Shown here: positions 5,206-8,979 of the stretch, in pieces | How positions within the stretch are numbered: the stretch's first letter is position 1 | Layout of the letters: each line of letters opens with the position of its first letter | Source: an uncultured Ectothiorhodospiraceae bacterium | Lineage (GTDB): Bacteria > Pseudomonadota > Gammaproteobacteria > Nitrococcales > Nitrococcaceae | Length of the DNA stretch: 64,000 nt | Direction: 5' to 3' | Assembly: GCA_913056385.1 (NCBI GenBank) | Contig: CAJXND010000001.1 | Span: 101,129 to 165,128 of the forward strand | The notes under the pieces: model-generated | Databases searched by the model: none | What the model was told of the DNA's origin: nothing | What the model saw: the letters and a program-made list of their open reading frames with translations, nothing else | Position numbers and translations under genes: made by a program

Positions 5206-7046
<1,841 letters not shown>

Positions 7047-7086
7047 CCCGCCAGTCTAACGCATGACTTGACGGCCCGGCGGAATT

Positions 7087-7091
7087 GGAGG
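7087..7091 (+). promoter_or_regulatory. Shine-Dalgarno (GGAGG) for the leucine leader peptide
   Basis: GGAGG 7 nt before ATG 7099. Confidence 0.7.
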
Positions 7092-7098
7092 TTAACTC

Positions 7099-7191
7099 AT
7101 GGCCATGATGACGGAATCCAGCAATCGTCCCGCCACCGTGCTTCTCCGCGGCCTGCTCCCCGGGCTGCTGCTGCGCCACGCGCGCAGTTAA
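7099..7191 (+). CDS. leuL: Putative leucine leader peptide, MAMMTESSNRPATVLLRGLLPGLLLRHARS
   Basis: 30-codon ORF with good SD, 7 Leu within residues 15-25, directly upstream of leuA; below the track's length cutoff. Confidence 0.8.
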   Translation: MAMMTESSNRPATVLLRGLLPGLLLRHARS

Positions 7192-7222
7192 TAAAACCCC
7201 ACCCCAGACAATCTGATTCCCC

Positions 7223-7259
7223 TGCAACCGCCATCAACGGCGGTATCCGGCCCGTTGCA
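7223..7259 (+). promoter_or_regulatory. Nested stem-loop in the leuA leader, TGCAAC-[CGCC-ATCAAC-GGCG]-N11-GTTGCA
   Basis: Perfect complementary arms 7223-7228/7254-7259 and 7229-7232/7239-7242; ends 5 nt before the leuA GGGAG. Confidence 0.5.
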
Positions 7260-7272
7260 TGACAGGGAGCGC

Positions 7273-8979
7273 ATGACGATGCTCGATGACCCAAGCCGTA
7301 AATATCAGCCTTTCCGTCCGATCCGGCTCCAGGACCGGCAATGGCCGGACCATACGATCACCCGGCCGCCGGTCTGGATGAGCACCGATCTGCGCGATGG
7401 TAACCAGGCGCTGTTCGAACCCATGGATGTCGGGCGCAAACGCGCGTTGTACGACTGCCTGGTGGACGTCGGTTTCAGCGAGATCGAGGTGGGTTTTCCG
7501 TCCGCCTCGCAGGCCGATCATGACTTCGTCCGTCATCTGATCGACAGCGATGCGATTCCCGAGGGCGTCTGGATCGAGGTGCTCACCCAGGCGCGGCCGG
7601 AGCTGATCGAGCGCACCTTCGAGGCCGTGGCCGGCGCGCCCCGCGTGATCATCCATGTCTACAACGCGACCTCGCCGGTGTTCCGCGAGGTGGTGTTCCG
7701 GCAGAGCGCCGAGGGCGTCCAGACAATGGCCGTCGAGGCGGCCCGGCAGATCCGCGACCTGGCCGCCGGGCGTCCCCGGACGGCCTGGCGCTTCCAGTAC
7801 AGTCCGGAGACCTTCAGCACCACCGAGCCGGCGTTCGCCCTGTCCGTGGTCGACGCCGTGACGGCGATCTGGGAGGCCTCGGCGGATGCGCCGGTGATCA
7901 TCAACCTGCCGGCTACCGTGGAGATGGCCTCACCCAACGTCTACGCTGATCAGATCGAGTGGATGCACCGGCATCTCGCCCGTCGGGAGGGGATCGTGCT
8001 GAGCGTCCATCCGCACAACGATCGGGGGACCGGTGTCGCGGCGGCGGAGCTTGCCCTCATGGCGGGTGCCGACCGGGTCGAGGGCTGTCTTTTCGGTAAC
8101 GGCGAGCGGACCGGCAACGTTGATCTCGTGACCCTCGCGCTCAATCTCTATACCCAGGGCGTGCATCCCGGGCTGGACTTCTCGCGTATCAACGACGTGC
8201 TGCGCACCGTCGAGCACTGCACCCAGATCCCGGTCCACCCACGGCATCCCTATGTCGGCGACCTGGTCTTCACGGCATTCTCCGGATCCCACCAGGACGC
8301 CATTCGCAAGGGCTTTGCCGTACAGCCGGAAGATGGGCTCTGGTCAGTGCCTTACCTGACGATCGACCCGCGCGACCTGGGACGCAGCTATGAGTCGGTG
8401 ATCCGGGTCAATAGCCAGTCGGGCAAGGGAGGCATGGCCTACCTGATGGAGCAGGCTTATGGCGTGACACTGCCGCGGCGGCTGCAGGTGGAATTCTCGC
8501 GGGTGGTGCAGGCGCATATGGATGCCGGTGGCGGCGAGGTGGCCGCCGAGACCCTCTGGGAGATCTTTGAACGCGAGTATCTGCGCCTGGAGACGCCCAT
8601 CCACTATATCGGCCACAGCCTGTTCGATGCCGGCGAACGCCAGGGCCTTCGGCTTCGCATCCGGCGGGATGGGGAGGTCGTTACCCTGAACGGCTTTGGC
8701 AACGGGCCCATCGATGCACTGCTGGATGCCCTGGGGAGCCCGGTGCGAGTCCAGCACTACGAGGAGCATTCCCTCAGCCATGGTTCCGATGCCGGCGCGA
8801 TATGTTTCATGGAGCTTGCCGCAGAGGGCATTGACGGCGATGTCTACGGTGTCGGCATGGATGCCAATATCGTCACCGCCTCGGTGCGCGCGGTCTTGAG
8901 CGGCATTAACCGAATGGCGTCTCAGGCGCCGGCGGTACTCGGCAACGCCGCCAGTGTGGCGAGGAATGCCTCGCCATAG
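7273..8979 (+). CDS. leuA: 2-isopropylmalate synthase
   Basis: [98 protein letters not shown] 7273 preferred over TTG 7255 because GGGAG lies at 7265-7269. Confidence 0.95.

Follow-up and report, generated by a model that had tools for sequence, protein, structure and literature searches.

The closest described counterpart of the locus studied here is the actinobacterial LEU element, in which a leucine leader ORF precedes leuA, its leucine codons pair with the leuA Shine-Dalgarno sequence (SD), and a pseudoknot is conserved (Seliverstov et al. 2005, PMC1262725). The leuA leader of Streptomyces lividans, LeuL1, is 15 amino acids long, leaderless and without a terminator (PMC8079986). Mutations in the leuA leader of S. 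coelicolor did not fit classical attenuation; they also count against a reading by SD masking. The enterobacterial leuLABCD leader (Rfam Leu_leader) and LeuL of Epsilonproteobacteria (PMC3847290) are peptides of ∼28 amino acids encoded before leuA, with leucine codons near the C-terminus; the former acts by transcription termination, and the same has been proposed for the latter. Control of the next gene by a leaderless small ORF, with elongation as the amino-acid sensor, is represented by the polycysteine attenuators of mycobacteria (Canestrari et al. 2020, as cited in PMC9031893) and by trpL of Sinorhizobium meliloti (PMC7298713), the outcome in the latter being transcription attenuation.

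The stretch of DNA analyzed here (the window; 64,000 nucleotides of a gammaproteobacterial genome of 1.95 Mb, G000) resembles the LEU element in having a leader ORF with a run of leucine codons before leuA and no intrinsic terminator. The leucine-codon region pairs with the leuA SD in the minimum free energy (MFE) fold, to a degree that in this genome alone is not beyond chance. As in S. lividans, the leader is probably leaderless, judging from promoter geometry. The host is a gammaproteobacterium rather than an actinobacterium, the leader sequence differs from that of S. lividans, and helix positions shift between species of the window's group. The system would work like the LEU element by likeness of design rather than by demonstrated descent. 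An earlier note on this DNA had remarked that an SD-masking leucine leader would be a departure from known systems, which overlooks the LEU element. In contrast to leuLABCD and LeuL, the leuA locus of the window has no terminator or Rfam match and its leader is probably leaderless; the mycobacterial ORFs and trpL concern another amino acid, other genes and other lineages. No description of the proteobacterial system was found in the literature searched, most subscription journals, including earlier surveys of proteobacterial attenuators, being outside its reach. The proteobacterial variant appears to be new, the leucine-leader kind as such being already known. If correct, it would extend leaderless, translation-level leucine leader control, so far known mainly from Actinobacteria, to Proteobacteria. 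The features are listed in Table 1.

Table 1. Features of the leuA locus in window positions, and loci of the second leader in related genera
Feature	Position	Strand	Remarks
-35 box TTGACG, leader/leuA promoter	7068-7073	+	TTGAC[GT] aligned in 5/5 genus members, N18 to -10 box; most leader-bearing relatives alike
-10 box TTAACT	7092-7097	+	Ends 7 nt before ATG 7105; predicted transcription start site (TSS) on or beside that ATG
Leucine leader peptide ORF MMTESSNRPATVLLRGLLPGLLLRHARS	7105-7191	+	28 codons; probably leaderless; kept in L001-L005 and L100-L105 and at betaproteobacterial loci
Alternative anti-SD segment GUGCUUCUC	7138-7146	+	V-L-L codons; ribosome there lowers predicted SD opening cost; equivalent segment best in G002
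Anti-SD segment GCUCCC + CGGGC, from the earlier note	7155-7165	+	MFE fold; helix/position comparison
Hairpin P2 at leader end, CUGCGC...GCGCAG	7170-7188	+	Nearly invariant in genus and family
C-rich, G-poor, rut-like stretch after leader stop	7192-7226	+	15 C and 3 G in 35 nt; CCCUG at 7220-7224 can pair with the SD
Hairpin P3, ACCGCC-AUCAAC-GGCGGU	7227-7244	+	No U-tract; same place in 5/5 genus members and most family members
GCCCG	7250-7254	+	Second partner of 7161-7165; not fully kept in G002
leuA SD AGGGAG	7264-7269	+	9 nt before ATG 7279
leuA, 2-isopropylmalate synthase, long TIGR00970 form	7279-8979	+	566 aa; NCBIfam TIGR00970 above cut-off, E 1.8e-228
Second leader ORF with hairpin (related genera)			L025, L031, L033, L044, L083, L100-L105, L114, L119, L124, L138 and others

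The leader ORF and its promoter

An ORF encoding MAMMTESSNRPATVLLRGLLPGLLLRHARS at 7099-7191, with 7 Leu in residues 15 to 25, had been proposed as a leucine leader in the earlier note, and this frame was confirmed. Fourteen genomes of the genus were searched. The form of leuA found in the window was present in five, all of which had the leader ORF, with the peptides MMTESSNRPATVLLRGLLPGLLLRHARS, MLTDFNHRPSIVLLRGLFPGLLLRRARS, MSMTINNLARLLRSLGLLAGLLLRRARS, MIRVNINDSRSLLGSLPLRLLLRLARS and MRIRSAQRRLLSRGLPLGLLLRLARS. The leader was also found in six further family genomes, as well as at many beta- and gammaproteobacterial and some alphaproteobacterial loci. Its typical ending was GLLLR.ARS before the stop codon, with related endings in other genera, including betaproteobacteria. 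Comparison of the upstream regions found the run of Leu codons kept, as the earlier note had expected of a true leader, both in the family and in 5/5 of the genus genomes that carry this form of leuA. A short ORF with a cluster of Leu codons before a leucine gene, kept in relatives, is the general mark of a leucine leader peptide, and the presence of such a peptide upstream of leuA is near certain from sequence comparison. That the frame is short, and that the fold of 7060-7300 was not unusually stable (z -0.65), would suit a chance ORF without function, but frame, Leu runs and C-terminus are conserved across many genera, in the same position ahead of leuA. By this conservation the ORF is more than chance, and a functionless frame is hardly credible.

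A conserved promoter, TTGAC-N18-TTWACT, ended 6 to 7 nt before the leader ATG in all five genus members. Distances of 6 to 9 nt held across most leader-bearing loci and dominated even with the promoter sought over 160 nt, in a survey that was partly circular because the choice of loci included the promoter score. Leaders picked by the ending LLLR.[AP]R alone nearly all had the promoter layout; at L031 and L044 it was seen in one scan only and was absent from the open scan. The GGAGG at 7087-7091, previously taken for the leader SD, sits in the spacer between the two promoter boxes; it is absent from the other four genus members, none of which has an SD before the leader. Since the promoter and ATG 7105 are conserved in 5/5 members and the GGAGG and ATG 7099 are not, the leader more likely starts at ATG 7105, and the SD and start first assigned to it are probably wrong. 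From the spacing of the promoter it follows that the leader is probably leaderless, with ATG 7099 likely upstream of the predicted TSS. A TSS downstream of 7099 had been named in advance as evidence against the proposal; as predicted from the promoter, it tells against the assigned start and SD and leaves the leader itself standing.

Predicted pairing of the leader with the leuA SD

We give about an even chance to a leucine-sensing leader peptide that controls leuA mainly at translation, by masking of the SD, a reading built on sequence comparison and modeled folds. Transcription would start at or beside ATG 7105, as the conserved promoter spacing suggests, and the leader would be translated as a leaderless mRNA. 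With leucyl-tRNA plentiful, the ribosome would reach the stop codon at 7191, and one or both anti-SD segments could then pair with the leuA SD and hinder initiation, as folding and the species-matched complementarity suggest. When leucyl-tRNA runs short, the ribosome would stall at the leucine codons and cover these segments, and the SD would open. Lower translation of leuA may in addition expose the message to Rho.

The complementarity on which the earlier note had based this model was found as described: GCTCCC (7155-7160) matches GGGAGC (7265-7270), and CGGGC (7161-7165) matches GCCCG, giving 11 pairs with a 10-nt bulge, and this helix appeared in the MFE fold of the window. In the closest relative, G002, that exact helix is weakened, and the predicted partner of the SD is leader segment 32-41. 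Controls were made by resampling the leader codons with the peptide fixed; against these, the window alone was not beyond chance (helix, P = 0.31; SD occlusion, P = 0.066). Leucine codons are C/U-rich and SDs are purine-rich, so complementarity between leader and SD comes cheaply.

The best contiguous leader/SD helix measured 7 bp in the window and likewise in G007 and G009, 9 bp in G006, and 10 bp, G-U pairs included, in G002. In G021, the closest relative of the genus, leucine codons form a perfect helix of 12 bp, GCUCCUGUCCGG/CCGGACAGGAGC, with the next SD. Most of these best helices fall inside the leucine clusters or between them, ∼30 to 50 nt upstream of the leader stop codon. Their positions shift between species, and hence there is no column-by-column covariation. 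In the genus, the helices were modestly better than those of codon-resampled leaders (P = 0.04). When SDs were permuted among the species of the genus and G021, 5 of 720 permutations did as well as the true pairing, with ties counted because three SDs are nearly identical. When the ribosome was placed on the stop codon, occlusion of the SD exceeded that of the controls in the genus (P = 0.006) and with G021 added (P = 0.001), as did opening of the SD on stalling (P = 0.02 and 0.003, respectively). For all 11 genomes together, the combined P was only 0.03 to 0.05.

With a ribosome on the Leu codons, the predicted cost of opening the SD fell from ∼14 to 4 kcal/mol in G006, from ∼11 to 5 in G009, and from ∼10 to 1 in G021. 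The switch was smaller in the window (∼7 to 4 kcal/mol; 6.8 to 0.7 with the ribosome at the V-L-L codons of its second, alternative anti-SD segment), since the SD there has a further pairing partner in the C-rich spacer. It was small in G002, and no switch was predicted in G007 or in 5/6 family members outside the genus. Unrestricted leader-SD duplex energies did not exceed those of codon-resampled leaders (combined P = 0.37), since large bulges dominate them, and the contiguous-helix and SD-opening measures were adopted after this result was known. With tests chosen post hoc and few genomes, the result for SD masking is therefore suggestive only. Of the model put forward earlier, the leucine leader peptide is strongly supported, and relief of SD masking by stalling is moderately supported, with switches in G006, G009 and G021 and none in G007.

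Hairpins, the C-rich stretch and other mechanisms

The absence of a terminator between leader and leuA, noted earlier by eye, was borne out by a scan of 6980-7400, which returned 0 terminator-like sites; attenuation by an intrinsic terminator was rejected on this finding. A classical attenuator like that of enterobacterial leuLABCD would account for a leucine leader peptide of the usual size before leuA, but it would need a hairpin with a T-tract, and in none of the genus members does P3 come with a U-tract. Rfam gave no match at E ≤ 1 in window positions 6000-8000, and relatives gave none or only tRNAs. Such an attenuator is very improbable.

Attenuation by Rho would be compatible with the lack of an intrinsic terminator: Rho would load on the C-rich, G-poor stretch that is conserved directly after the leader stop (C exceeds G over these 35 nt in 59/64 loci) and terminate before or within leuA, unless a stalled ribosome altered the RNA structure. 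A comparable suggestion has been published for mycobacterial cys leaders. The Leu codons, however, are upstream, and a ribosome halted there would leave the C-rich stretch exposed in both states, so this model needs an extra switch, and we regard it as rather unlikely. The same post-stop stretch resembles an anti-SD or rut sequence across the 64 loci and often contains CCUCCUG in betaproteobacteria.

Conservation is stronger for the hairpins P2 and P3 than for the SD helix, and most family members are without an SD switch. The leader could thus act through other alternative RNA structures or through a protein that binds P2/P3, as a protein has been proposed for the LEU element, the SD complementarity being incidental. 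Against this stand the species-matched leader/SD helices, the excess SD occlusion in the genus plus G021, and the lack of a candidate protein; we consider it unlikely. The sequence of P2 is nearly invariant, and its covariation therefore cannot be scored. A strict DNA pattern for this leader-end hairpin matched two leuA loci and three chance coding sites in 369 genomes.

The second leader ORF and the leuA gene in relatives

Related genera have another small ORF between the first leader and leuA; it ends at, or runs through, a hairpin that follows a conserved CGACUG. This second leucine leader ends in LRLxxG[CR][QR]A, has a hairpin of 11 bp, and is located ∼40 to 170 nt upstream of leuA. In an alignment of 24 sequences, 96.6% of cells pair and 6 of the 11 pairs change on both sides; the covariation score exceeded that of 500/500 shuffles. 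Among 369 genomes of the class, nine matched a covariance model of the hairpin, eight of them directly upstream of leuA; the ninth match (G229) was on a contig other than that of leuA, which in this genome lies at the edge of its contig. The hairpin is absent from Rfam and, in the genomes searched, was found only next to leuA. If the observations hold, a strongly covarying RNA precedes leuA in many proteobacteria and is open to direct test in cultivable strains.

The window and L001-L005 lack the second leader and its hairpin. From the leader stop to the next start, be it that of leuA or of the second ORF, the distance was 79 to 91 nt in 11/11 genomes. The simplest reading of these positions is that the window's genus lost the second leader and that leuA now stands behind the former SD position of that ORF, which would mean that this small-genome lineage has kept only one leader of a two-leader system. 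Tentatively, and with somewhat under an even chance, type-2 proteobacterial leuA may have an undescribed leucine-responsive leader RNA, made up of a leaderless leader and a second leader with the covarying hairpin, of which the genus would have lost the latter while the first leader came to switch the SD directly.

The start of leuA is most likely ATG 7279 rather than 7273, because G002 lacks the 7273 codon and the SD spacing fits 7279. At its other end, leuA (+) overlaps a RecQ-like helicase gene (-) tail to tail by ∼58 nt (8922-8979). A second isopropylmalate-synthase-like gene, 33 to 35% identical, was found in 14/14 genus genomes (L006-L014; L016, G000:C3:64848-65576), the leader-controlled form being additionally present in only 5/14. 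Contigs labeled as cyanobacterial metagenome-assembled genomes (L049, L057 and L064) also have this form of leuA, preceded by similar elements, which suggests either transfer with the gene or misbinning.
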